Shown here piece after piece: positions 50 to 37,672 of a stretch of DNA of 47,113 nt. Source of the stretch: a virus; the IMG/VR virus record IMGVR_UViG_3300013131_002048, positions 1 through 47,113 of that record; one strand, written 5' to 3'. Below the pieces are notes generated by a model, which was not told the origin of the DNA, ran no database searches, and saw nothing but the letters and a program-made list of their open reading frames with translations. Within the stretch, counting starts at the first letter, position 1. The number at the start of each line of letters is the position of its first letter. Both the position numbers and the translations under genes were made by a program.

Positions 50-139
50 TGGTGGAAGCGGTGAGATTCGAACTCACGGACCCTTTCGGATCGTCTGTTT
101 TCAAGACAGGTGCAATCAACCGGACTCTGCCACGCTTCC
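50..139 (-). tRNA. tRNA-Ser(UGA)
   Basis: Folds as a class II tRNA: acceptor pair GGAAGCG/CGCTTCC, anticodon loop CTTGAAA, long variable arm, GTTCGAATC T-loop. Discriminator A is followed by a genome-encoded CCA (50-52). Last gene of the ten-tRNA array. Confidence 0.95.
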
Positions 140-147
140 ATAATCTT

Positions 148-228
148 TGGTGCCCCTAATCGGATTCGAACCGATACTTATGACACTCCTTTTGAGAGAG
201 CCGCCTTTACCATTTTGGCCATAGGGGC
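148..228 (-). tRNA. tRNA-Leu(CAA)
   Basis: Acceptor GCCCCTA/TAGGGGC with discriminator A and encoded CCA. The anticodon loop CTCAAAA gives CAA (reads UUG). The variable region is short for Leu (about 9 nt) and the anticodon stem holds G-U pairs, so the identity is slightly less certain than the tRNA call. Confidence 0.85.
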
Positions 229-234
229 AATTAG

Positions 235-312
235 TGGAGCAACGGGCGTGATTCGAACACGCGGTTTTCAGGATTTGCAGTCCCGTGCATTGGGCCTCTC
301 TGCCACCGTTGC
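235..312 (-). tRNA. tRNA-Cys(GCA)
   Basis: Acceptor GCAACGG/CCGTTGC, discriminator T, encoded CCA. Anticodon loop CTGCAAA gives GCA. T-arm GCGTG-TTCGAAT-CACGC is intact. Confidence 0.93.
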
Positions 313-318
313 ATTGTC

Positions 319-392
319 TGGCGTACCGACTAGGACTCGAACCTAGAACGCTGATTTTGGAGATCAGAATGTTGCCATTACACTATCGATAC
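319..392 (-). tRNA. tRNA-Trp(CCA)
   Basis: Acceptor GTATCGA/TCGGTAC (one T-G wobble), discriminator G, encoded CCA. Anticodon loop CTCCAAA gives CCA. T-arm CTAGG/CCTAG intact. Confidence 0.93.
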
Positions 393-397
393 ATACG

Positions 398-492
398 TGG
401 TACTCCCACTAGGATTCGAACCTAGATCATCCCCTCATCTAGAGGCATCGCCCGGATATAAGCCGGGAGCTTTACCGTTAAGCTATGGGAGC
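398..492 (-). tRNA. tRNA with UAU anticodon (Ile, reads AUA) and a long variable arm
   Basis: Acceptor GCTCCCA/TGGGAGT, D-arm GCTT/AAGC, anticodon stem CCCGG/CCGGG with loop CTTATAT, so the anticodon is UAU. T-arm CTAGG/CCTAG, encoded CCA. Between anticodon stem and T-arm there are about 25 nt that can fold (CCTC-TAGAT-GAGG), a class II variable arm not expected for tRNA-Ile. A tRNA gene is certain; the amino acid is less so. Confidence 0.8.
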
Positions 493-498
493 AAAATT

Positions 499-574
499 TG
501 GAGCGGGTGATCAGGTTCGAACTGACGACATCTTCCTTGGCAAGGAAGTGCTCTACCAACTGAGCTACACCCGC
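499..574 (-). tRNA. tRNA-Gly(GCC)
   Basis: Acceptor GCGGGTG/CACCCGC, discriminator T, encoded CCA, anticodon loop TTGCCAA between CTTCC/GGAAG stems. Canonical D- and T-arms. Confidence 0.95.
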
Positions 575-577
575 ATA

Positions 578-652
578 TGGTACACTGTAGGGGAATCGAA
601 CCCCTCTTCCCGCCGTGAAAGGGCGGTGTCCTCACCGATAGACGAACAGTGC
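578..652 (-). tRNA. tRNA-Glu(UUC)
   Basis: Acceptor GCACTGT/ACAGTGT, encoded CCA, anticodon loop CTTTCAC between CCGCC/GGCGG stems. T-arm AGGGG/CCCCT intact. Confidence 0.95.
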
Positions 653-658
653 ATTGTC

Positions 659-733
659 TGGCTCCAGAGGGTGGGATCGAACCACCGACCAAAAGATTAA
701 CAGTCTTCTGCTCTGCCGCTGAGCTACTCTGGA
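659..733 (-). tRNA. tRNA-Asn(GUU)
   Basis: Acceptor TCCAGAG/CTCTGGA, discriminator G, encoded CCA, anticodon loop CTGTTAA. Canonical arms. Confidence 0.95.
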
Positions 734-742
734 ATAAAACTT

Positions 743-817
743 TGGCGGTCCCAACGAGAATCGAACTCGTCCCTACGGCGTGACAGGCCATTATTCTAAC
801 CGATAAACTATAGGACC
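743..817 (-). tRNA. tRNA-Asp(GUC)
   Basis: Acceptor GGTCCTA/TGGGACC (with wobble), discriminator G, encoded CCA, anticodon loop CTGTCAC between GGC/GCC pairs. T-arm ACGAG/CTCGT intact. Confidence 0.93.
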
Positions 818-823
818 AAATTT

Positions 824-909
824 TGGTGGATGCGGTAGGAATCGAACCTACGGTGTTTCTCTGTCACTGATTTACAGTCAGCTGCCTTCGCCGCTCGGCA
901 CACACATCC
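824..909 (-). tRNA. tRNA-Tyr(GUA)
   Basis: Acceptor GGATGTG/CGCATCC, anticodon loop CTGTAAA between CTGA/TCAG stems, class II variable arm, encoded CCA. First tRNA transcribed; its mature 5' base (909) is next to the predicted transcription start of the 917-945 promoter. Confidence 0.95.
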
Positions 910-10024: not shown

Positions 10025-10185
10025 CTGCAGATATTGATTGGTTTAATACCGTTGAGGCTGAAAGAACTTATAAATTTTTCCATATCATCGTTGACACTGA
10101 TCACTTTTGCTACGGTCATGAACTTATAATGTAGCATAATCCATACAGTATAGTCAATCCACCAATCTATGGGAGTGTATATCAT
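10021..10185 (-). CDS. Small 54-aa protein
   Basis: Starts at 10185 in an ATGA overlap with the cyclase stop and ends in an ATGA overlap with the DD-peptidase start. The product (MIYTPIDWWIDYTVWIMLHY...INICR) is aromatic-rich at the N-terminus. No family recognised, but the double coupling makes it a convincing gene. Confidence 0.75.
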   Translation of the reverse strand: MIYTPIDWWIDYTVWIMLHYKFMTVAKVISVNDDMEKFISSFSLNGIKPINICR

Positions 10186-12236
10186 TTTTCGTGTGCTACG
10201 AATTCGCCGTTCCAGTTAGGTCCTAGATCCTGTTGTTTCATAAACTCACAACGTTCGATCCATATCTTGTAGTATTTGTCCATTTGACCTCCAAAGGTTC
10301 CTTTCATTTTTGCACACATTGCCGCGGCCTCATCAAACTTCTTGGCCTTGTATAGTGCCTGCATTTTATTATATTGTTCCAAATCTTTTGACCAGTCTGC
10401 TCCGTTGGGGCGTAATGCAGTGTAAATTAAATCTGCCACAGATTTGCCTTTTGGTTGAAGATTGTCTAGCATTAGGTAAAAGAAATCATCTTTAGTTCTA
10501 TTGTATGTTTCAGCACCAATGATATTTAGAACTCCATAAGCCTTGCATCGTGCTTCTAATCGAGCCGCAGTTGAAACCATGTCGCCTAATATGTCATAAC
10601 TGTGTCTGTCAGTGCTACCCATCTCACCAATGAAGCCGATACCTGTATTACAACCCCATCCCATGGCTGCTGGGGGTAAACCTTGTGCTTCCATTTCTTT
10701 AGTATAAGCATCGACAGCGTCTAGCATTTGTAAGCCAACAGCCACGATTGTGCGAGCGTGATTAACGTCTTCAATAGGTGCACCGTGGATATGCATACTT
10801 GCATCACCTACATATTTGATAACCATGCCTTTGTTGTCCATGATAGGACGACTGATAGCATCCATGTACCCATTCATATACTTTCCAAGTCCAGCAACGT
10901 CATCACCGTAGTGTTCACCGATTGGTGTAAAACCACGCAAGTCTGAGAACATAACTGATACGTCTTTACGTACACCGCGCTTGATTAGGTCTGGATCTTT
11001 TTGTAGCATTTCTACTACTTCTTTAGAACAGTATCCAGCAAACTGTTTCTTTATGGCCTGCTTCTGTAAAAACTCACTTACAAACTTAACGCCATAAGCG
11101 TGAAGCATGACAACAACAAGCCCAGCAACCAACGCAGTGCTGTCAAAGAGCCAAAGATTAGATGAATACAGGTATTGAGAAACAGGAATGACGCTACCAA
11201 TAATAACAACACCGCTAATAATTCCAACATAAGTCCACCTTGTTAAAAATAATAATACTGCGCCAGCCAAAGCCAATGTCAAAATCTCAACACCGTCTGC
11301 ATAATCAGGGCGTTGTATCACTACATTATTAAACATCGTTCCGATCACAGCGGCCTGTACCTCGTGAGGCCAAACTGATCCTATAGCAGTAGGTACAGGA
11401 TTACCTAGTCCTGCTGCTGCCACGCCTACTATAACAACGGCTCCGCCTAGGTCTTTGGGTAGTTCTGTCATTGAAACTGATCGTGATTTCTGACTCCAGT
11501 CTATCCATACACGACCCAAGGGATCTGTAGTGATAGGACCAAACTTAGGTATGCGCATCTTTTCTACGCCACCTTCAAACAATTTAATCTGAGTAGTTGA
11601 ATCTCCTGCCGCCACTCGTAGAACTTCCATGGCCAGACTAGGAAATACGTTTCCTTCTACAGATACTATCAGAGGCATTCTACGATTAACCCCATCTATC
11701 TCAGGCAAAGTATTGACAACTCCTACACCTGCTGCTCTTTTTTCTAAATCGGGGATATTAGCGATAATTCCAGGATATTGTATGATCATATCTTGAAATT
11801 CAGGCCCCATTATGGCTGTGCCTGGCTTGCGAGGTTTATTCTTCATGCGATCTGCAGGCATATTAGGTAATACTACAGCATACTCGTTTAGCGTTGCTGC
11901 TAGAGATCCGTCTCCACCTTGACGATCAGGTTCGGTCATCAAGACATTGAATACTACTAGGCCAGCTCCACGTTTATATAGATCTTCTATCAGTTGAGCA
12001 TAGATTTCTCTGTTAAAGGGCCATTGGCCGTATTTTTCTAAAGCATTTTCATCTATGTTAACAGTGATGATATTATTTTCAGTGACTGCTTGGCTGGTAA
12101 TCAATGTATCAAAATATCGCAGTCTTACAGATTCTACAAACTGCGGATCAGCGGCTCTAATGCCTACTATGAGAGATAATGTTATAAGAGCAGTCCAAGG
12201 ACTGACTAAGATTCTTTTTAGATTTTTGTTTAACAT
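10182..12236 (-). CDS. CHASE2-domain class III adenylate cyclase
   Basis: 684 residues: N-terminal membrane helix (about 8-25), extracytoplasmic CHASE2 sensor (30-310), three membrane helices (318-385), then a class III cyclase domain (395-600). Metal aspartates Asp432 (FSDLRGFT) and Asp478 (KYVGDA) are present, as are Lys474 and Asp548, which fit ATP preference, and Arg559. The transition-state Asn of VNxAARLE is Ser555 here. It closes the curli-like cassette. Late-type TTAAATA at 12241-12247 lies four bases before the ATG. Predicted inner-membrane sensor making cAMP, or an inactive homologue. Confidence 0.9.
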   Translation of the reverse strand: MLNKNLKRILVSPWTALITLSLIVGIRAADPQFVESVRLRYFDTLITSQAVTENNIITVNIDENALEKYGQWPFNREIYAQLIEDLYKRGAGLVVFNVLMTEPDRQGGDGSLAATLNEYAVVLPNMPADRMKNKPRKPGTAIMGPEFQDMIIQYPGIIANIPDLEKRAAGVGVVNTLPEIDGVNRRMPLIVSVEGNVFPSLAMEVLRVAAGDSTTQIKLFEGGVEKMRIPKFGPITTDPLGRVWIDWSQKSRSVSMTELPKDLGGAVVIVGVAAAGLGNPVPTAIGSVWPHEVQAAVIGTMFNNVVIQRPDYADGVEILTLALAGAVLLFLTRWTYVGIISGVVIIGSVIPVSQYLYSSNLWLFDSTALVAGLVVVMLHAYGVKFVSEFLQKQAIKKQFAGYCSKEVVEMLQKDPDLIKRGVRKDVSVMFSDLRGFTPIGEHYGDDVAGLGKYMNGYMDAISRPIMDNKGMVIKYVGDASMHIHGAPIEDVNHARTIVAVGLQMLDAVDAYTKEMEAQGLPPAAMGWGCNTGIGFIGEMGSTDRHSYDILGDMVSTAARLEARCKAYGVLNIIGAETYNRTKDDFFYLMLDNLQPKGKSVADLIYTALRPNGADWSKDLEQYNKMQALYKAKKFDEAAAMCAKMKGTFGGQMDKYYKIWIERCEFMKQQDLGPNWNGEFVAHEK

Positions 12237-12575: not shown

Positions 12576-14256
12576 GGCCCTGTGTGACAGTTATTGCAGC
12601 GCAACTGACCTGGGCACAGTTATGAGTGATAGAATAATACTGTAGTGTGCTACCCGATTGCGTGGCTGTGATCGAGGTAGTTCCTCCACTGAGCGTGATG
12701 TTAGACATATGGGCTGCTGATCCACTCTGCGTAACATTAACAGTTTTATTACCACCGCTGAGATTTACTTCTGTGTAATGATTTCCATTGCCACTTTGAT
12801 TGACTGTCAAAGAATTAGAAGCATTATTAACTGTGGCTAAAATGCTTTTTGTGCCGCCAGTGCTAGACTGTGTAAGATTTACTGTATTAGAATTTCCTAT
12901 GACATCTAATTCTATATAGTTTGTGGCAGTCGCAGAGGTACTGGTCTGTGTGGTGTTAGTTGTGTTATTATTACCACTGACATATATTTCACTGTAATTA
13001 TTCTTAGTGCCACTCTGCTGTACCGTAGCATAGTTATTGTTGCCTATCTGCGTGATAATAACTTTAGTATCTGCTGGCAATCTATTTTGAAATGCAGTCA
13101 ATCTTGAATTAAATTGTGTGTTGGGATTAAATGGTGCCGCTGTGCCACCACAGCAGAAACTGCCGGGATTATTGACGCTGCCTGTACCTGCGTCTGCAGA
13201 TGTTGTTGCATTATTGGCATCATAGTAAAAAGTTATTTCTGCTATCTGCATAGAGTCGCAGTTTAATCCGCATCCCTCGCCTGCTTTGGTTGTTGGAAAG
13301 AATATGTAGTAATAGATATATGATGTAGAATTAGTCACAGTGATCATTGCGCTGGTATCATATCTATTGTTGCTGAGATTTAGATTACCGTCTTGTATCA
13401 GCGTCCAAGTAGTACCATTGTTACTACCATATAATTTATAACTGGTAGGATCTCTACCTGGAAAATCGTTGGCGGTGGTTAATGTAAATCCTGTGACTAT
13501 ACGGCCTGCATTTAATTTTACAGTCACTCCAGCATTGTATTTGTCAAAGTTTAGATATTTGGTATAGGGGTTGTTGTCAAATGCGTTGGCAGCATCTTCG
13601 CCTGGTGGTGAATTATTACTGGTAGGATAGTGATTTGTAATGTAAACTGTGCTACTGTTATTGTAGATAGCAGTGGGAATCGGACTAGGCGGAGCATTAT
13701 TGCTGTTAGGAGTTTGAGTAGCAGTCTGTCCTGCAGCCAAAGGCACAGTAGAATAGTTAGCATCAGCATAGGTGTTGGCCTGTGCTATTGTAGGATTAAG
13801 TGTGCCAGTCCAAGTGACACCACTGCTGCCGCTCATGCCACTGGATCCACTGAACAGTTGTCCTGTATTATTATCGCTACCTACAAAAAAGAAATAATCA
13901 GGTCCCATATTAACGATCTTACCATTGCCTAGTGTTGCTTTTACCTGTCCTGAACTATTGTATTGTTTGGCAGTATAGGGAAAAGAATTGTTCCCGCTGA
14001 GCTCAAATTTAACATAGTCGCCGGTGGCCCATTGTACCTGTCCCGAGGTCCAAGGAATCTTATAAGCAGTTCCTGGATTCTTACTGTAGATCTGGCAGGT
14101 CGTGGTGTACAAACAGGCACTTACGTTCCATTGACTATCTGCTATCTGGTATCGACCAAATTGTATATCTGTAAGAGCAGCCCAGGTCTTGGGGCTCAGC
14201 AGCATCAGCAGGAAGAATATGACAGCAACGTCTAGATACAATCGCCATTTGCTCAT
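12571..14256 (-). CDS. Secreted adhesin-like protein: discoidin-like domain plus curlin-type repeats
   Basis: 561 residues from ATG at 14256 (ATGA with the FecR-gene stop; AAGGA is correctly spaced for this ATG, not for 14265). Signal peptide ending KTWA. Residues about 200-350 (AFDNNPYTKYLNF...SYKLYGSNNGTTWTLI) match an F5/8 type C or discoidin fold. From about 400 to the end there are G-N-x-N / Q-x-G curlin-like repeats (IGNNNYATVQQSG, GNSNTVNLTQSS). Predicted exported, amyloid-type, surface-exposed. Part of the csg-like operon. Confidence 0.85.
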   Translation of the reverse strand: MSKWRLYLDVAVIFFLLMLLSPKTWAALTDIQFGRYQIADSQWNVSACLYTTTCQIYSKNPGTAYKIPWTSGQVQWATGDYVKFELSGNNSFPYTAKQYNSSGQVKATLGNGKIVNMGPDYFFFVGSDNNTGQLFSGSSGMSGSSGVTWTGTLNPTIAQANTYADANYSTVPLAAGQTATQTPNSNNAPPSPIPTAIYNNSSTVYITNHYPTSNNSPPGEDAANAFDNNPYTKYLNFDKYNAGVTVKLNAGRIVTGFTLTTANDFPGRDPTSYKLYGSNNGTTWTLIQDGNLNLSNNRYDTSAMITVTNSTSYIYYYIFFPTTKAGEGCGLNCDSMQIAEITFYYDANNATTSADAGTGSVNNPGSFCCGGTAAPFNPNTQFNSRLTAFQNRLPADTKVIITQIGNNNYATVQQSGTKNNYSEIYVSGNNNTTNTTQTSTSATATNYIELDVIGNSNTVNLTQSSTGGTKSILATVNNASNSLTVNQSGNGNHYTEVNLSGGNKTVNVTQSGSAAHMSNITLSGGTTSITATQSGSTLQYYSITHNCAQVSCAAITVTQGQ

Positions 14257-15332
14257 CGATTCCATATCCTTACAGTTACTTTGTTGGATCCGTCACCTAC
14301 TGTTTTTGTTTCTATGTCATTGCTGTTGATAGAAATATTGTAAGTAGTGTTGTCGTATTTTTCTCCGCTCTTTACCACTATGGTGTTACCCCTATCATCA
14401 TCTTTGCGGTAATACCAATTGCGACCTTTTTCGTTCCCGCAGTCATTAAAGGGCCAACAGGGATTAATAGCGGCTGTACCTAGTTGTTGGCCTCCGTCTG
14501 CATTAATTCCATATAGTTTCGTACCTTCTTCATCTCTGGATTTTTTATCAGCCATGCTTTTGTCTGTGCTTTCGCCGGCTTTCTTTCGCTCGTCATCGTT
14601 GTACTTGCTTTTATCTTTGTCACGATCTTTTTGATCTTCTCTATCATTTTCTACTCTAGCGATGTTTTCTGGCTTTTTTAAATTGCTGTCATTACTGACT
14701 GCTATGGGATCAACGGCCACAGGAGGCAATGGTGGTTGTGCCGCATCTGTGACATAGGTAGCAGTAAATGCAGTGTTTAGACTGACCATTCCTGCATCAG
14801 TTGTCACATCAATAGCGCCAACTGTACAATTACCCTGTATCTGATAATTACCTACTTTGGTCTGATCATCACAACTAGGTAGTAATACTACTAGACTTCG
14901 GCCAACTTCGTCTACGGTCATAGCGAAATCTGTACCACGTACAGCTATAGATGCTGTGGGAGTTTTAATGTTTACGCTCTGCGGATTGTTTTTAGCTACC
15001 TGTCCAGATGCATAGCGCACTGTGCCCAATGCTACTTTCATACCCAATTTACCTGCATCTGATTTCTTAGGATCAAACACAAAGTCATCTAGGACGAGTC
15101 TAGAATTTTCTGTGATTTTAACCTTAGTGTTGTCTTTGAAAGTTATGTTGACCTGTGATCTTGAACCTACACTCACTGCATCCATACTCTCCACGGCAGT
15201 ATCGACCTTGCCTGTGATAGAGGTTTTACTTCTTTTGATTTCGATGGCTGTGCCCTGGACTTCGTTCATAGTGCCAATGTTAGCACTAGCATCCAGGGCA
15301 AATATTGTCAATAGCAGCCAAACATACTTCAT
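14253..15332 (-). CDS. FecR-domain periplasmic protein
   Basis: 359 residues. Signal peptide ending DASA. FecR domain: VGSRSQVNITFKDNTKVKITENSRLVLDDF, then LGTVRYASG and TPTASIAVRGTDFAM (about 50-150). A highly charged linker (about 225-280, KDRDKDKSKYNDDERKK) precedes a C-terminal domain with CWPFNDCG. FecR domains sense or bind in the periplasm; here it could scaffold the curlin-like protein. TAATG overlap with the curlin-like gene. Confidence 0.88.
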   Translation of the reverse strand: MKYVWLLLTIFALDASANIGTMNEVQGTAIEIKRSKTSITGKVDTAVESMDAVSVGSRSQVNITFKDNTKVKITENSRLVLDDFVFDPKKSDAGKLGMKVALGTVRYASGQVAKNNPQSVNIKTPTASIAVRGTDFAMTVDEVGRSLVVLLPSCDDQTKVGNYQIQGNCTVGAIDVTTDAGMVSLNTAFTATYVTDAAQPPLPPVAVDPIAVSNDSNLKKPENIARVENDREDQKDRDKDKSKYNDDERKKAGESTDKSMADKKSRDEEGTKLYGINADGGQQLGTAAINPCWPFNDCGNEKGRNWYYRKDDDRGNTIVVKSGEKYDNTTYNISINSNDIETKTVGDGSNKVTVRIWNR

Positions 15333-18963: not shown

Positions 18964-18971
18964 TATTTATC
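18964..18971 (-). promoter_or_regulatory. Late-type promoter abutting the 18958 start
   Basis: Minus strand GATAAATA, then five bases, then ATG. Predicted leaderless start. Confidence 0.5.
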
Positions 18972-19647
18972 GTATTTCTGGGAACAGGCAATCCTGGATG
19001 AAGTGCTGTACATCATCCTCTGACAGCCCTAAACTCACCATTACACGCGGTGTATGTGGGTTTTGCTTCTGATTCTGTGCGTAATAGTTCTGCGCTGCTG
19101 TGGTGTTTTCGGCCTGTCCCAGTGTTTCTCCCACTGTGCTGAGATAGTGTTCTACAGTGTCCTTGGCCATGGCTATGATTTGAGCTAGTTCTTCCTCATT
19201 CTGCACATTGCCTGCTGCTACCATGCTGGGACTGAAAATGTTGGTGGCCCACTCCGGTAGTTCTCGGACTCTGCGCCATTCCAGGTGGCTCACATAGTCT
19301 GCGAACCACTGCATCATAGGATGATCGGGATCCCCTGCTTTGGAGTAATCGTGGAAACAGCCAGTGATTTTATTCTTACCAGCTATAACATCAAATCCAT
19401 AGATAGGGCTGGGATCTGTGACATGTGGAAAAATGCAACAGTGCATCATCCACAGACCTTTGGTATCTCTAGCATCAACTACATCTACGTGAGCTCTGCG
19501 ATAATGATCGCTGGTCCACACACGATTCACCCAACCGGGCTGATTGAACCTTTCCATGCCAGGTTCATTCACTTCTATACCAGTTTGATTGAATTTAGTT
19601 TCTAATAGCTGTTGAATTTCAATCAGCGTGTTCCACACTTGGCTCAT
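18967..19647 (-). CDS. pcyX: Ferredoxin-dependent bilin reductase, PcyX-like
   Basis: 226 residues, a typical length for the HY2/FDBR family. WMMHCCIFPHVTDPSPIYGFDVIAGKN carries the family's active-site region: His69 and Asp86 align by eye with PcyA His88 and Asp105, and Asp55 falls near PcyA Glu76. Such enzymes reduce biliverdin with electrons from ferredoxin; phage PcyX has been described as making phycoerythrobilin. It overlaps the heme oxygenase gene that supplies biliverdin. No ferredoxin or phycobiliprotein gene is in the window. PcyA or PebS is the alternative subfamily. Confidence 0.88.
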   Translation of the reverse strand: MSQVWNTLIEIQQLLETKFNQTGIEVNEPGMERFNQPGWVNRVWTSDHYRRAHVDVVDARDTKGLWMMHCCIFPHVTDPSPIYGFDVIAGKNKITGCFHDYSKAGDPDHPMMQWFADYVSHLEWRRVRELPEWATNIFSPSMVAAGNVQNEEELAQIIAMAKDTVEHYLSTVGETLGQAENTTAAQNYYAQNQKQNPHTPRVMVSLGLSEDDVQHFIQDCLFPEIR

Positions 19648-20179
19648 TGTTGAGATCTCTCATTATTTTTATGGCCCACTCAAAGGCCACACGAGCTTCA
19701 TCTCCTAGATCGTCTGTAAGCTCTGCACGGATCTGTTCTTTGAGTCGTTCTGGATCTTTAAATTTATAAAATCTACCCTGACCCGGCACACGTTTGGCCA
19801 AAATCTGTCCACCGTAAAGATCACCCATGTGTCGGCAGTATAGATGCGCTTTGATTAGATGTTTACGGGCAGGATCGTGTAACAGTTCTAGCAGATAGTT
19901 ATGATAGTCCACTGTGCTAGGCAACCATGTATAACTGTGATCCTTGCCTGCTAGTTCGATGAAATCTTGATAGATGGCCCAGGTTCTTTCTATGTCAGGA
20001 AGATTAGCAAAATTTCCCTGTAATCTGTTTCCCATCTCTATGGGATTATAGATCAGCACCATCTGGTACAGATAGTTGGCATAATCTTCTACAGGTATAT
20101 TGCCGCTGAGTAATTTCTTAGCGAATTCTGTGCGTTCTGCATCTGTGTGCAGGTCTTTGGTAATTTCTCTCAGGCTCAT
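19619..20179 (-). CDS. ho: Heme oxygenase (biliverdin-forming)
   Basis: 186 residues, shorter than host HO1 (about 230-240) but with the core. Proximal heme ligand His11 in KDLHTDAER; distal-helix GDLYGGQ at 119-125; YCRHMGD before it. Opens heme to biliverdin, releasing iron and CO; needs ferredoxin or another reductant. ATGA overlap with clpS upstream and 29-base overlap with the bilin reductase downstream, so the three are one translation unit. Confidence 0.93.
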   Translation of the reverse strand: MSLREITKDLHTDAERTEFAKKLLSGNIPVEDYANYLYQMVLIYNPIEMGNRLQGNFANLPDIERTWAIYQDFIELAGKDHSYTWLPSTVDYHNYLLELLHDPARKHLIKAHLYCRHMGDLYGGQILAKRVPGQGRFYKFKDPERLKEQIRAELTDDLGDEARVAFEWAIKIMRDLNNEPSVEHAD

Positions 20180-21024: not shown

Positions 21025-22920
21025 TTAGTCTGCTTTCTTCTCTGTGAAGGTAGCATCAACTACATCATCCTGTGCGGGCTGTGTAGGTTGGGCCTGAGCC
21101 TGTTCCTTAGCCTGCCTTTTCTCCAACAATGTTTTCATTGCAGGGAAAACCTTGTTAAGTGCTTCAGTGATTTTTTCTTTGTCATCACCTTTTACTGCTT
21201 CTTCTACTTCCTTGATCACAGTTTCAAGTTCTGTGATCTCTGCATCACTGAGTTCAGCACGGAATTCTTCGAGATCTTTTTTAACTTCATGTATCTGTGC
21301 TTCTGCAGAGTTTTTTACATCGATCAATTCACGAGCTTTCTTGTCTGCTTCTGCATTTAGCTCTGCATCTTTGATCATGGCCTGTATTTCTGCATCGCTT
21401 AGTCCACTGTTGGATTTGATAGTGATTTTATTTTCTTTGCCTGTGCTTTTGTCTTTGGCAGAGATATGCATGATACCATTGGCATCAATATCAAAGGTCA
21501 CTTCAATCTGGGGTTGGCCTCTGCGAGCAGGTGCGATGCCTTCTAGATTAAATTCACCTAGCAATTTGTTATGCTGAACGAGTTCACGCTCACCTTGGAA
21601 CACCTTGATGGTCACTGCAGGTTGATTGTCATCTGCTGTGGAGAATGTCTGTTGTCCTTTGGTAGGGATAGTGGTGTTCTTCTGGATGATCTTTGTCATC
21701 ACACCGCCCAGTGTTTCAATACCAAGGCTCAAAGGAGTCACATCCAGCAACAGCACGTCTTTGCGATCACCGCCTAGTACTGCGCCCTGAATGGCAGCAC
21801 CTACAGCCACTGCTTCGTCTGGATTCACATCTCTACGAGGTGCTTTACCAAACAGTGATTCCACAGCTTCCTGTACCTTAGGCATGCGTGTCATTCCACC
21901 CACTAGAATAACTTCATCAATGTCAGCGGCAGTGACTCCTGCATCTTTCATAGCGATCTTGCAGGGTTCTATAGAGCGTGTGATCAGCTCAGCAACCAAG
22001 CTTTCTAGTTTGCTGCGAGTTATCTTGATGTTCATGTGACGTGGACCGCTGGCATCTGCTGTGATATATGGCAGATTCACATCTGTCTGCGCAGAACTAG
22101 ACAATTCAATCTTGGCCTTTTCTGCGGTTTCTTTGAGACGTTGCAGTGCCAGAACATCTTTGGTTAGATCAACTCCGGTGTCTTTCTTAAACTCATCAAC
22201 CAAATAGTCCATGATGCGTTGATCAAAGTCTTCTCCACCTAGGAATGTGTCTCCGTTGGTGCTGAGCACTTCAATCTGCTTCTCGCCATCAACGTTGGCA
22301 ATTTCAATAATGCTGACGTCGAATGTACCGCCACCAAGGTCGTAAACAGCGATTTTCCTGTCTGCTTTATCCTGTTTGTCCACGCCATAGCTCAGTGCGG
22401 CAGCGGTAGGTTCGTTGATGATACGCAGAACTTCTAGTCCAGCGATCTTTCCTGCATCCTTGGTAGCTTGACGCTGACTGTCATTGAAATAGGCCGGTAC
22501 AGTGATCACTGCCTGCGTGACAGTGGTACCAAGATAGTCTTCTGCGGTCTTTTTCATTTTACGCAGAACTTCTGCGGAAATCTGTGGGGGTGCCAATTCT
22601 TTGCCTGCGGCTCGTACCCATGCATCACCATTTGATGCTTCCATGATTTCATATGGCATCAGGTCGATGTCTTTTTGAACAGCCTGTTCTTTGAATTTAC
22701 GCCCAATCAATCTCTTGCTGGCGTAGATTGTGTTTTTTGGATTAGTAACTGCTTGCCGTTTTGCACTTGCACCGACCAGCACTTCGTCGTTGGCATAGGC
22801 TACGATACTGGGCGTGGTTCTAGCGCCTTCGTTGTTTTCAATTACTTTGGGAATTCCATTCTCGATAACAGCCACGCACGAGTTGGTGGTGCCGAGGTCA
22901 ATACCGATGATCTTAGACAT
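21025..22920 (-). CDS. dnaK: DnaK (Hsp70) chaperone, full length
   Basis: 631 residues, standard bacterial length. Nucleotide-binding domain opens [15 protein letters not shown], with [33 protein letters not shown] and [13 protein letters not shown]. The linker [16 protein letters not shown] and substrate domain are intact, and the C-terminus ends DDVVDATF before a short Lys/Asp tail. No DnaJ or GrpE in the window, so host co-chaperones would be needed. AAGGAG before the ATG and a consensus late promoter TATAAATA at 22998. An intact Hsp70 is rare in phages. Confidence 0.97.
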
Positions 22921-30861: not shown

Positions 30862-31377
30862 TTAACTGTTCAAGACTCTGGCCACGGCTGTGATCACTGA
30901 GGCAATACGTCCAATATCACGTAGTTGCTCTACTGTGTAGCCTTCTTTTTTGAGTGTTTCATAATGTGCTTTTACACAGAAATGGCATTTACCGACTATT
31001 GAAGCAGATAATGCGTATGCTTCAAATCTACCTTTAGTAGTACCGCCGTGAGTAGCAATGGCGTTCATTCTTAATTGAGCAGGTAATCCACTAAGATTAG
31101 CATCTTCGGCCATTTCAACATAAGGATACCAAACGTTGTTCATGGCCATTAGACTAGCGGCTGTAATAGCAGCTTCTGCTTCTTTTTGATCTGCGATCTG
31201 ACTCTGCATCCTAGTCCACAGTTTCGTGTTACCTGTGGCAAAAGCCGCCGCTAAGGCAACGGCTTCTGCTTCTTCTTGGGGTAGAGTAGAACGCTTGACC
31301 ACTGCATCTATGTTAAGACGTGTGTCTTTGGCATAGTCAGGAATGGTTTCCTTGAGTTGATCTACCCACTGAGTCAT
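30862..31377 (-). CDS. ahpD: AhpD-like alkylhydroperoxidase
   Basis: 171 residues, all helical. GKCHFCVKAHYETLKKEG carries the C-x-x-C-x-x-x-H active site of AhpD. The helical N-terminal half matches full-length AhpD. Reduces AhpC in place of AhpF. TAATG overlap with ahpC, so made together. Confidence 0.93.
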   Translation of the reverse strand: MTQWVDQLKETIPDYAKDTRLNIDAVVKRSTLPQEEAEAVALAAAFATGNTKLWTRMQSQIADQKEAEAAITAASLMAMNNVWYPYVEMAEDANLSGLPAQLRMNAIATHGGTTKGRFEAYALSASIVGKCHFCVKAHYETLKKEGYTVEQLRDIGRIASVITAVARVLNS

Positions 31378-31910
31378 TACAGTGTCTCCCCACCAACTTC
31401 GCGGTTACAGGCACAGAGTTCGCCAGTTTGTAGTGCGTCAAGAACACGCAGAGTTTCTTCTGGTGAACGACCCACATTTAAATTGTTAACTGTGACGTGT
31501 TGAATCACATTATCAGGATCAACAATGAATGTGGCACGAAGTGCGGCACCTGCTGGTTCAAAGAACACACCTAATTGATTAATCAGACTAAGTTCATCGC
31601 GTTTAACATCGGCAAATTGAACGTGGGTGATCTTGGCGAGATCAGGATGTGCCTTTTGCCAAGCAAGTTTACAAAACTCGTTATCTGTTGAACCTGTCAG
31701 CAAAACTGCATCACGGTCTGCGAAGTCTTTGGCTAACTTGTCATAGGCTACAATTTCTGTAGGACAAACAAAAGTAAAATCCTTTGGATAGTAGACGATT
31801 ACTTTCCACTTACCTTCAAAAGATTTTTCTGTAATGTCAAAGAATTGATCACTACCTGGATTTACGCCAACTACGGCAAATGCTTCTATACTATTTCCAA
31901 CTGTTTTCAT
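31377..31910 (-). CDS. ahpC: AhpC-type peroxiredoxin
   Basis: 177 residues. Peroxidatic Cys in PKDFTFVCPTEI and resolving Cys in TGELCACNRE, the form that pairs with AhpD rather than AhpF. Destroys hydrogen peroxide and organic peroxides. AAGGAGATAAA precedes the ATG, and the gene has its own promoter. Confidence 0.95.
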   Translation of the reverse strand: MKTVGNSIEAFAVVGVNPGSDQFFDITEKSFEGKWKVIVYYPKDFTFVCPTEIVAYDKLAKDFADRDAVLLTGSTDNEFCKLAWQKAHPDLAKITHVQFADVKRDELSLINQLGVFFEPAGAALRATFIVDPDNVIQHVTVNNLNVGRSPEETLRVLDALQTGELCACNREVGGETL

Positions 31911-32042: not shown

Positions 32043-32068
32043 GAAAAAGAAAGGAGCCGAAGCTCCTT
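32043..32068 (-). terminator. Terminator of the tmRNA coding piece
   Basis: AAGGAGC / GCTCCTT stem with a TTCG loop followed by TCTTTTTC on the minus strand. Ends the tmRNA transcript upstream of ahpC. Confidence 0.9.
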
Positions 32069-32236
32069 CCACTATTTTTGGTTACAAGGCATAGTTGCCC
32101 CGGAAGTTTAGGCTGCTAGAGCGTAAACCTCGTCATTAGCTGCGTTTGCAGTTATAAATTTGCTTGATTTAGGGTCATCGCCTACCCTGCTGTCCACTCT
32201 GTTACTCTTTGCCCTGTCGAAACCAATGTCAGGCCC
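32050..32236 (-). ncRNA. ssrA: tmRNA (ssrA), coding piece of a permuted gene
   Basis: Mature 5' end predicted at 32236: GGGCCTG pairs with CAGGTCC of the acceptor piece. Then ATTGGTTTCGACAGG, the tmRNA D-loop signature, and the tag frame at about 32112-32153 starting GCA and ending TAA: tag ANAANDEVYALAA. The acceptor half lies upstream on the same strand, so the gene is circularly permuted. The exact 3' end of this piece is not known. Confidence 0.92.
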
Positions 32237-32249
32237 ATCATAAAGAAAC

Positions 32250-32339
32250 TTACTTTTGTTTTTTAAGTTGTTCTTTTAACCAAGCAGGTTGATATCCTGT
32301 TTGATTATTAGTGAACAAATTTTTAAACCAGTTTAACAT
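32250..32339 (-). CDS. 29-aa ORF inside the tmRNA intervening segment
   Basis: ATG at 32339 with AAGGAAG upstream; product MLNWFKNLFTNNQTGYQPAW then a Lys-rich end. The amphipathic N-terminus could touch membrane. No family recognised. Good ribosome binding site and short spacing from the 48-aa ORF support it. Confidence 0.55.
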   Translation of the reverse strand: MLNWFKNLFTNNQTGYQPAWLKEQLKKQK

Positions 32340-32349
32340 AAAACTTCCT

Positions 32350-32496
32350 TCAGATACAGTAATCGATTTGAGGGCTGTTGTATTCATCCATTACTTTACA
32401 ACATTCCTTAAAAGTACCAAAGAAAACGGCTTTCATAGTATTACGGTGAAACACCGCCCATTTATCTCTGCATCTCCAAATTTGATACTTCTGCAT
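32350..32496 (-). CDS. 48-aa ORF inside the tmRNA intervening segment
   Basis: ATG at 32496 with AAGGAAAG upstream, stop ten bases before the next ATG. Product (MQKYQIWRCRDKWAVFHRNT...PQIDYCI) is Cys- and aromatic-rich. No family recognised. Starts only 14 bases after the tmRNA CCA end. Confidence 0.6.
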   Translation of the reverse strand: MQKYQIWRCRDKWAVFHRNTMKAVFFGTFKECCKVMDEYNSPQIDYCI

Positions 32497-32509
32497 CTAA
32501 CTTTCCTTA

Positions 32510-32578
32510 TGGTGGACCTGGCGGGAGTCGAACCCGCGTCCAGAACACTTTTCTCTCGGCTTCATACAGCAATAACTT
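32510..32578 (-). ncRNA. ssrA: tmRNA acceptor piece
   Basis: Minus strand GTTCTGGACGCGGGTTCGAC... CCAGGTCCACCA: T-arm, acceptor strand CAGGTCC, discriminator A and encoded CCA (32510-32512). Transcribed before the coding piece. The 5' end of this piece is approximate and touches the stop of the DUF454 gene at 32578. Confidence 0.9.
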
Positions 32579-32988
32579 TATTTAATCCAACCTATCTTTT
32601 CACCTACTGCTTTGCGCCTATCATGTTCTTTTGGAGTATTAGGATATCTCCAAGCCCACACAGCCACTAACGCCATAAACACAGCAGTTGAAATTATACC
32701 AATGGGTTTAACTCCACCGGTATACATTAGTATAAGACTTAATGACATCATTATCAACATCAAATAACGTAATTTCTGCGGAAATACTCTTTTTTCATTC
32801 CAATTTGTAAGGAATGGACCAAAAATCTTATGATTGTATATCCAACGATGCATACGTTCTGAACCTTTTGAGAAACAATATGCTGAAAATACAACGAAAG
32901 GTGAATACGGAATTCCAGGAGTGATGACGCCGATATAGGCCATCCCCAAACTCAAGAATCCTAATATGTTCCAAAATAATTTTTTCAT
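32578..32988 (-). CDS. DUF454 (YbaN-like) membrane protein
   Basis: 136 residues. LGFLSLGMAYIGVITPGIPYSPFVVFSAYCFSKGSERMHRW is the DUF454 signature (G-x-x-P-x-x-P-x-x-P-F-x-x-x-x-x-x-C-F), followed by FGPFLTNW and two membrane helices. Function unknown; unusual in a phage. TAATG-type overlap with the peptidase gene. Confidence 0.85.
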   Translation of the reverse strand: MKKLFWNILGFLSLGMAYIGVITPGIPYSPFVVFSAYCFSKGSERMHRWIYNHKIFGPFLTNWNEKRVFPQKLRYLMLIMMSLSLILMYTGGVKPIGIISTAVFMALVAVWAWRYPNTPKEHDRRKAVGEKIGWIK

Positions 32989-35799: not shown

Positions 35800-36431
35800 T
35801 TGTATTTTCCTGATGCAAGTACTATCTTGCAAATATGTTCTAATCTTTCAATGTGCTCATAGGCACGCCACGGAGTCACATCAATGGCCACAACCCCGTG
35901 CCCTTTAATTCCAACTATGTCGTAGGCAATATTGCCCTCGTTATCTAATTGTAACATCTTATGACACTGATCAGCTAGAGCTTGGCTAATGGGGGGTACA
36001 TCACCTACATTGGGTGCTACCTTGGTGTAGCGATTAAGTTCTGGAAACTCATTGCTAATGGTATTTAAATCAATTCCGGCATGCATGGCTGCAATACAAT
36101 AGGTGGGATGCACATGCACTACCACACGAACGTCATTGTTGTGCTGTCCCATCCGTTTTTGCAGACCAAAGTGCAAGGGAATTTCTCCACTGGGTTTGAG
36201 GTTACCACTGATATCAGTATAAAACTCTTCTCTCCAAAGGGAGACTGGTCCGTTTTCGAGGATCTTTATCTTCTTAAACTGATCGGGCTGCAGAGTCTGC
36301 TTACGCACTCCCGATGGTGTGATGTAAAAATGATCACGATCGTGATGTCGTATAGAAATATTACCATCTCTGCTGGTAATCCAATTCCGTTTGTAAGCAT
36401 CTACCAGTATATCACAACAGGTTTCTAGCAT
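35796..36431 (-). CDS. Class II aldolase/adducin-family protein
   Basis: 211 residues. N-terminal ITSRDGNISIR, then ITPSGV, KPSGEIPLHFGLQ with the catalytic Glu, VVVHVHPTYCIA with two zinc His, and GIKGHGVVAI with the third His. Family includes fuculose-phosphate aldolase, ribulose-phosphate epimerase and MtnB; substrate unknown. Oddly placed between SOD and nrdB in an overlapping operon. Confidence 0.88.
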   Translation of the reverse strand: MLETCCDILVDAYKRNWITSRDGNISIRHHDRDHFYITPSGVRKQTLQPDQFKKIKILENGPVSLWREEFYTDISGNLKPSGEIPLHFGLQKRMGQHNNDVRVVVHVHPTYCIAAMHAGIDLNTISNEFPELNRYTKVAPNVGDVPPISQALADQCHKMLQLDNEGNIAYDIVGIKGHGVVAIDVTPWRAYEHIERLEHICKIVLASGKYK

Positions 36432-36963
36432 TGATGAAGTCCCAGTTTATTATTTTCCATTGATTTTCTATATATTTTGATTTATCTGATTGATAGTCTA
36501 AGGCCCATGCATGTTCCCACCAATCTATCAATACCACTATGTCATTCTTGATCTCATGATTCACAATAGTCTTTATCTTGCCGTCTTTGGCCAAATAGAC
36601 CCAACCACTGCCCTGTATCGCCATGGCTGCTTTCTCAAATTGCTGCTTGAACTGATCAAAGGTTTTATAATATTCTTCAATGAATCTCAGTATAGGTCCG
36701 GATGGCTTGTTGTTTCTACTAGGTGCTTGATATTGTTGAAACAGTGTATTGTGTAGAAATGCGCCTGCTTCATTAAATCCAGCATCGCCTTCATTGGCAT
36801 TGTAGCGTCGAGCATAGCCCTGTGCCAGTTCGCCGTAGTGATAGTCGATAGTGGCTTCGCTGACACTAGGATCGAGTTCATTGCGCTCATAGGGCAATGG
36901 CAGTATTTCTAATCGATGAGGTCTTCCTTCATTGAGCACGTTGCGTATGAAACTATAGGTCAT
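36412..36963 (-). CDS. Fe/Mn superoxide dismutase-family protein
   Basis: 183 residues. Ligands visible: His in IDYHYGELAQGY, His in GAFLHNTLF, and D-x-W-E-H in LIDWWEHAW. The second-sphere His of the usual H-x-x-x-H is Leu here. GSGWVYLAKDG fits the SOD C-domain. Mature length slightly short. Converts superoxide if active. Followed by Fe-S genes upstream in the same operon. Confidence 0.88.
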   Translation of the reverse strand: MTYSFIRNVLNEGRPHRLEILPLPYERNELDPSVSEATIDYHYGELAQGYARRYNANEGDAGFNEAGAFLHNTLFQQYQAPSRNNKPSGPILRFIEEYYKTFDQFKQQFEKAAMAIQGSGWVYLAKDGKIKTIVNHEIKNDIVVLIDWWEHAWALDYQSDKSKYIENQWKIINWDFINARNLL

Positions 36964-36966
36964 TGT

Positions 36967-37296
36967 TTACACTCTGAAACTTTCACCGCATCCGCAGCGA
37001 TCGCGCTCGTTGGGATTGATAAACTCAAAGCCCTCGTTCAGGCCTTTCCTTTGATAGTCTATGGTCATGCCTTCAAGATAGATCCGATGTTCGGGGTTGA
37101 GATAGATCCTTACGCCCTTGACATCATGATGCTCCACGCAGTGTTGGGTGCCTTGCTCTTGATCCACATATTCCAAGGTATAGGACAGGCCCGAGCAGCC
37201 GGTGGTTTTCACACCCACTTTGATTCCTCGGCCGCGCCCGCGGCGATGCAGAGCGTCCTGTATCTTGACTGCTGCGAGGTTAGTGAGAGAGATCAT
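36967..37296 (-). CDS. iscA: A-type Fe-S carrier (IscA/HesB)
   Basis: 109 residues. The three ligand cysteines are in TTGCSGLSY and RCGCGESF. Carries Fe-S clusters from IscU to apo-proteins. Overlaps iscU by 17 bases. Gene region looks richer in GC than nearby nrdA. Confidence 0.93.
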   Translation of the reverse strand: MISLTNLAAVKIQDALHRRGRGRGIKVGVKTTGCSGLSYTLEYVDQEQGTQHCVEHHDVKGVRIYLNPEHRIYLEGMTIDYQRKGLNEGFEFINPNERDRCGCGESFRV

Positions 37297-37672
37297 GCTT
37301 ATTGCGATAGTCTTCTATGGCCGCTTTGATCGCATCCTCTGCCAGTATGGAGCAGTGTATCTTGACCGGCGGCAGCGCGAGCTCTTGAGCGATCGCGGTA
37401 TTTTGGATCTCCATCGCTTGGTCCAGCGTCTTGCCCTTGACCCACTCTGTGACAAGGCTCGAACTCGCAATAGCCGATCCGCAGCCATACGTTTTAAAAC
37501 GTGCATCTGTAATAATACCCGTATCATCGTCCACCTTTATCTGTAGTTTCATTACATCGCCACAAGCAGGAGCACCAACCATACCAGTACCAATATCAGT
37601 ATCAGTCTTGTCAAAAGATCCAACATTCCTGGGATTTTCATAATGATCAATTACTTTTTCGCTATATGCCAT
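37280..37672 (-). CDS. iscU: IscU Fe-S scaffold
   Basis: 130 residues. Cluster ligands: Cys in GAPACGDVM (with the Asp that keeps the cluster labile), Cys in YGCGSAIASSS, and Cys in LPPVKIHCSILAEDAI. The LPPVK motif for HscA binding is intact, notable because the phage carries a DnaK but no HscA. No IscS desulfurase in the window, so host sulfur supply is needed. AAGGAT before the ATG. Confidence 0.95.
   Translation of the reverse strand: MAYSEKVIDHYENPRNVGSFDKTDTDIGTGMVGAPACGDVMKLQIKVDDDTGIITDARFKTYGCGSAIASSSLVTEWVKGKTLDQAMEIQNTAIAQELALPPVKIHCSILAEDAIKAAIEDYRNKHDLSH

Follow-up and report, generated by a model that had tools for sequence, protein, structure and literature searches.

Permuted tmRNA, including its occurrence in phages, is already known. 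The alpha, beta and cyano models (RF01849, RF01850 and RF01851, respectively) are merged in the model RF04321, and maturation by RNase P together with 3' processing has been proposed for this form (PMC3985003, PMC11915505). Among phages, 53 two-piece tmRNAs have been counted, one of which was described in the cultured Methylophilales phage Melnitz (PMC9004378). In the intron-form tmRNA a homing-endonuclease ORF lies in a group I intron (PMC11915505), and one nominally archaeal permuted tmRNA, described as unique, has a tRNA-Ala gene in its intervening segment (IVS) (PMC11915505). No published ORF in a tmRNA IVS was found in the openly licensed literature. As far as found, the intron-form homing endonucleases (PMC11915505) are the only known protein genes in a tmRNA segment that is removed, and on the searchable literature exchangeable cargo genes in a permuted-form IVS are unreported. 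The IVS of permuted tmRNA has hitherto been treated as waste; in many phages it appears to hold protein genes that are both conserved and exchangeable.

The locus described here lies on the minus strand of the window (the whole 47,113-base virus record that was analysed), and its features are listed in Table 1. It is read as a permuted phage ssrA whose IVS would be a cargo slot for small nested protein genes, with a probability of roughly 0.88. By cmscan, RF04321 (tmRNA_permuted) was matched at 32571-32108 (-) with 125.1 bits (E 3.7e-24, model positions 1-213 of 213, gathering threshold 47), and tRNA families were the only other matches in the window; a default ARAGORN run on the window returned ten tRNAs only and missed the tmRNA. 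This full-length covariance-model match bears out the permuted two-piece tmRNA that had been proposed in the initial annotation, whose coordinates, GGGCCTG/CAGGTCC pairing, ORFs and tag all proved correct in the sequence. Its presence in a phage likewise stands, but not as a novelty, since two-piece phage tmRNAs had been counted before (PMC9004378). The acceptor piece lies upstream, the acceptor stem is formed across the two pieces and the tag frame ends in a stop codon. A conventional acceptor end downstream of the tag, named at the outset as a finding that would speak against permutation, was searched for 3' of the window tag and none was found. The T-arm is uninterrupted, unlike that of the intron form, in which a group I intron lies in the T-loop. 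The IVS is predicted to be missing from the mature tmRNA, with a putative RNase P site at 32237/32236.

Table 1. Features of the permuted tmRNA locus in the window (positions are those of the window)
Feature	Position	Strand	Basis or remark
Acceptor piece	32510..~32571	-	T-arm intact; 32571 is the start of the RF04321 match
Acceptor 3' strand CAGGTCC	32520-32514	-	Sequence
ACCA end of acceptor piece	32513-32510	-	Sequence
IVS, 273 nt	32237..32509	-	Between CCA and GGGCCTG in the RF04321 alignment
5' (coding) piece to tag stop	32108..32236	-	RF04321 and acceptor-stem covariation; carries GGTTTCGACAGG
GGGCCTG start of 5' piece	32236-32230	-	Sequence
Tag reading frame ANAANDEVYALAA, stop included	32108..32149	-	Sequence
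Intrinsic terminator-like hairpin closing the unit	32049..32070	-	Sequence
DUF454 gene, 136 aa, upstream neighbour	32578..32988	-	PF04304, 2.1e-29; synteny anchor
ORF1, 48 aa, MQKYQIWRCRDKWAVFHRNTMKAVFFGTFKECCKVMDEYNSPQIDYCI	32350..32496	-	Codon score +6.9 bits in frame
ORF1 SD AAGGAA	32503..32508	-	Inside 5' strand of IVS-end helix; sequence, folding
ORF2, 29 aa, MLNWFKNLFTNNQTGYQPAWLKEQLKKQK	32250..32339	-	Codon score +6.0 bits in frame
ORF2 SD AAGGAAG	32344..32350	-	Overlaps the final base of the ORF1 stop
IVS-end helix, 5' strand TAAGGAAAGTT	32499..32509	-	Pairs with 32251-32241; covariation, folding
IVS-end helix, 3' strand AAGTTTCTTTA	32241..32251	-	Covariation, folding

With RF04321 the locus shares the order of the pieces, the T-arm, the CCA, the G-U third acceptor pair, the D-loop-like GGTTTCGACAGG and a tag frame ending in AA. 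It differs from bacterial permuted tmRNA in its 273-nt IVS with two SD-led ORFs, the bacterial IVS being mostly 5-47 nt (about 30 nt; 32 loci parsed from the bacterial genome sets), and an SD-led ATG ORF filling the IVS was found at 0 of these 32 loci. Permuted tmRNA was detected in 137 of 399 Pseudomonadota genomes (most full spans about 190-280 nt, the longest 332 nt) and in 11 of 250 Burkholderiales genomes (205-240 nt). An apparent bacterial IVS of 225 nt (L408; loci are numbered with the prefix L) was rejected as a parsing error, because the entire model match there spans 223 nt. The pattern TATGATGGGCCNGN{3,5}GGTTTCGACAGG, typical of beta-type phage IVS ends, gave zero matches across 84,980 species, each represented by a single genome; a wider bacterial pattern returned Cupriavidus and many Lachnospiraceae records, the latter left unparsed as permuted by the script. 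Such an ORF was not seen in the IVS of isolated Xanthomonas, Stenotrophomonas, Alcaligenes, Pseudomonas and Acinetobacter phages. Five permuted tmRNA copies above the cut-off (including L253, L278, L290 and L300) were present in Cupriavidus pinatubonensis HN-2, some of them on plasmid p2. The intron-form tmRNA resembles the window in having a protein gene within the removed portion of the precursor, but there it is a selfish gene in a self-splicing T-loop intron, as against varied non-endonuclease cargo in the permuted-form IVS of the window group. The tRNA-Ala case also has an extra gene within the IVS, but an RNA gene.

The acceptor stem was compared across related phages by using 17 distinct stems, of which 98% of the cells pair in register versus 41-62% when the strands are slid. 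Compensatory changes were found on both sides of pairs 4-6 (GGGCCTG/CAGGTCC, GGGCGAG/CTCGTCC, GGGGGCG/CGCCTCC and others), so the pairing between the pieces, whose lack of conservation had been named as the other possible objection, covaries across related phages. The third pair, which is the alanine identity element, is G-U in every stem compared. The majority of the tag frames across the phage loci have AA before the stop. Many permuted tmRNAs of this phage group have long tags, about 23-33 aa in length (L144, L194, L371, L046, L353 and others; ANADTFDFSAMSFTGNTVRGAANESRFALAA is one such tag), the usual tmRNA tag length being 10 aa (PMC11915505).

For an unselected estimate of ORF content, IMG/VR was scanned with a T-arm/CCA pattern blind to ORFs, which yielded 38 permuted loci with an IVS of 70-460 nt; expected counts were obtained from shuffles preserving the IVS ends. 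An IVS-filling ORF starting 8-18 nt past the CCA was found at 19 of the 38 loci versus 6.9 expected; two of these (L009 and L034), with TTG or GTG starts, look like chance and were rejected as cargo. The slot therefore appears optional, because roughly one in two of the phage permuted tmRNAs collected without selection lacks a cargo ORF. In scans that selected either for an SD after the CCA or for the 3' end of the IVS, such an ORF was present at 50 of 53 loci (6.3 expected). At a looser criterion about 125 loci with 95 distinct proteins of 19-133 aa were collected, mostly from uncultivated phage contigs, in which the ORF starts 8-18 nt past the CCA and usually runs to the IVS end; there may be chance cases among the shortest of them. 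Homologous IVS ORFs were compared in 28 disjoint pairs, with the final eight codons excluded owing to the helix described below; pN/pS was 0.25 in frame, the shifted frames gave 0.98 and 1.40, and the differences by codon position were 155, 112 and 339, respectively. Judged from these sequence comparisons, the homologous IVS ORFs of related phages are under purifying selection.

Recognisable domains were found in some of the cargo, namely an 84-aa thioredoxin with WCGPC (PF00085, 4e-21; L144, L193 and L216) and a 128-aa IscU (PF01592, 3e-55; L243), and a hydrophobic peptide of 22-24 aa (e.g. MNDNLNSLAIGVVIVLIVFALVLL) forms a recurrent family. In L011, L077, L095, L102, L018, L134, L353 and Melnitz (L415, 6097-6261) the cargo ORF extends about 27-81 nt into the 5' piece and would thereby lose its stop codon on processing. 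L038, L105 and L118 were rejected as carriers of a common cargo, since what they share is read-through into the tmRNA.

Exchange of the IVS contents was followed at the DUF454-marked locus, where the DUF454 relatives are 82-95% identical. The IVS there contains two ORFs in the window, no such ORF in L315, L316 and L319, a three-codon remnant in L317, membrane-type peptides in L318 and L329, a cysteine-containing peptide in L325 and a thioredoxin in L326. Between the window and L315 the acceptor halves are identical at 64 of 68 positions and the 5' pieces to the tag stop at 125 of 129, while the IVS is 273 versus 59 nt; in this pair the change is limited to the IVS, whereas other members of the DUF454 set differ in the 5' piece too. 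Near-identical tmRNA halves around unrelated contents point to the IVS as a cargo slot. In L246 and L317 the IVS is 35 nt long and has room only for an SD, the helix and an ORF of three codons (MSG); it may be a cargo slot that has been emptied. The IscU carried in the IVS of L243 has a free-standing counterpart in the window (37289-37672) with 84% identity, and the protein of Melnitz gene 85 (the deposited CDS just upstream of the tmRNA) is 66% identical to the IVS ORF of L154, L176 and L217. One 122-aa cargo is shared by tmRNAs whose T-loop is TTCGANT (L145 and L229) and tmRNAs whose T-loop is the alpha-type GGCAGTG (L166 and L232). The latter loop, with AGGATCGAT in the 5' piece, was observed in L129, L132, L152, L166, L169, L190, L230 and L232, and the phages with this type of tmRNA share IVS cargo with those of the TTCGANT type. 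A GGCRGTR T-loop (about 25 loci) was considered as a new variant and rejected, since RF01849 shows it to be the known alpha-type loop.

The tmRNA of Melnitz, like that of the window, is phage-borne and permuted with an ORF in the IVS, the Melnitz ORF being conserved; it differs in its alpha-type T-loop, its 142-nt IVS (L415, 6078-6219) and its single ORF entering the 5' piece. This ORF of 54 aa (MFKWLSKTRLVVITRDYFRERNRKADAKIPKYLSGTRSVYDGGELGSTGRNRKV) has GGAG upstream and its last codons in the 5' piece; it is unannotated in the deposited record, and no ORF in the IVS is mentioned in the searched text of PMC9004378. All 18 of its 18 relatives in IMG/VR follow a CCACCA end. Against the diverged L431 its pN/pS was 0.30, the two other frames giving 1.10 and 1.36, and among close relatives the contrast between the frames was weaker. 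A 24-nt in-frame insertion is present in the version of L426-L428, and the version of L430-L433 stops within the IVS. Among the phage records, matches to the FecR-domain protein of the window were found in Melnitz and HTVC008M only, which suggests that the window phage may be akin to the Melnitz/HTVC008M group. Since one such phage, Melnitz (MZ577097), is cultured with its host, Methylophilales H5P1, it is directly testable whether a message and a ribosome-rescue RNA are coupled in a single transcript. As the Melnitz ORF is unannotated under a tmRNA annotation and the window tmRNA is missed by ARAGORN at default, present counts are probably too low for the genes and for the tmRNAs alike.

The first 11 bases of the IVS pair near its 3' end and extend the acceptor stem. 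For 90 distinct end pairs, 87% of the cells of this IVS-end helix are paired in one register versus 42-61% in the others, and it covaries, with multiple pair types at most positions. At the ORF-bearing loci the SD lies on one helix strand, and the other strand is formed by the last ORF codons or begins at the stop. By folding, the SD strand pairs with the IVS 3' end with a mean probability of 0.87 (0.78 in the window). Such pairing of the SD, predicted for the full-length RNA, would hinder translation unless translation takes place early. The placement of the SD in the helix suggests a single transcript that is mRNA first and tmRNA precursor second. In the proposed sequence of events, the acceptor piece, IVS and 5' piece would be transcribed as one RNA, and ribosomes would load at the SD just past the CCA during its emergence, before the far helix strand exists. 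The cargo would be translated to a stop in or beside the 3' helix strand and, on departure of the ribosome, the helix would close. RNase P would then cut ahead of GGGCCTG, the other end would be matured to CCA and the pieces would assemble into the tmRNA. For this order, translation before processing, the chances appear about even. Cargo translation may hold back the processing of the tmRNA, and cargo synthesis may in turn be stopped when the helix closes or the IVS is excised. More tentatively, the precursor could be two-in-one, with cargo translation and tmRNA maturation mutually exclusive in time and hence coupled, and with the cut cargo message of some families becoming a substrate for trans-translation.

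The initial annotation had noted a 273-base segment with 48- and 29-aa ORFs and ribosome binding sites, which is borne out by the sequence (AAGGAA and AAGGAAG upstream), and had left it between an RNA that is mRNA and precursor at once and ORFs that are lost on processing. This alternative now tilts toward real genes because the related-phage IVS ORFs are under apparent purifying selection and have recognisable domains; the pN/pS figures are those of IVS ORFs of other phages, not of ORF1 and ORF2. The window ORFs might instead be open frames that arose by chance within a long spacer, which would have no function and simply be excised. For neither was a homolog found among the fetched loci, Pfam and PHROGs, searches in which very near relatives may have been withheld, and an ORF1-type frame of at least 48 aa from an SD start arose in 469 of 20,000 dinucleotide shuffles of the window IVS interior. 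However, ORF1 and ORF2, each with its SD, tile the IVS, and such complete two-ORF tiling arose in just 12 of the 20,000 shuffles; only in the ORFs' own frame is the codon score above zero, and a two-ORF IVS also occurs in L218 and L220. Together with the selection on related-phage cargo, this makes chance frames improbable, and ORF1 and ORF2 are, as far as the sequence can tell, very probably genes. The TAA of ORF2 lies 13 nt ahead of the 5' piece, a stop position common to several other phage cargo ORFs. A degenerate relic, whose pieces would now do no more than flank and regulate a small gene, would agree with the lack of known tmRNA activity at these loci; it is hardly credible given the full-length RF04321 match, the compensatory acceptor-stem changes around an invariant G-U pair and the tag frames, mostly with AA ahead of the stop.

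Two further readings accept both the tmRNA and the genes and differ in the fate of the message. Processing might free the IVS as a small mRNA with the SD at its 5' end, to be translated after excision. Counted from the 5' end that the excised piece would have, the SD is indeed 2-7 nt away, and the majority of the cargo ORFs stop ahead of the cut, but both helix strands would stay on the excised piece, leaving the SD still paired, and in several families the ORF passes the presumed cut, so that excision would drop the stop codon; this reading is considered unlikely. The same ORFs that end past the presumed RNase P site (L011/L077/L095/L102, L018, L134, L353 and Melnitz) invite the converse idea that processing makes them non-stop and the tmRNA of the same transcript tags the product, an ArfA-like feedback for which there is a precedent in the RNase III cleavage that turns the ArfA product into a trans-translation substrate (PMC3985003). 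Most cargo ORFs, those of the window included, stop ahead of the cut, and so does the version of the Melnitz relatives L430-L433, which makes such self-targeting distinctly improbable. The preferred reading remains the permuted ssrA with a cargo slot, whose genes may be translated from the precursor.

Other genes were noted in the window. A heme oxygenase gene (PF01126) adjoins a bilin reductase gene (PF05996) at 18967-20179 (-), and full-length HSP70, IscU-like, Fe/Mn superoxide dismutase and peroxiredoxin-like genes lie at 21025-22920, 37280-37672, 36412-36963 and 31377-31910 (-), respectively. CHASE2-cyclase and FecR-domain genes are located at 10182-12236 and 14253-15332 (-), respectively, and Melnitz likewise has a FecR-domain gene near a cyclase gene. 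A cluster of ten tRNA genes occupies 50-909 (-).
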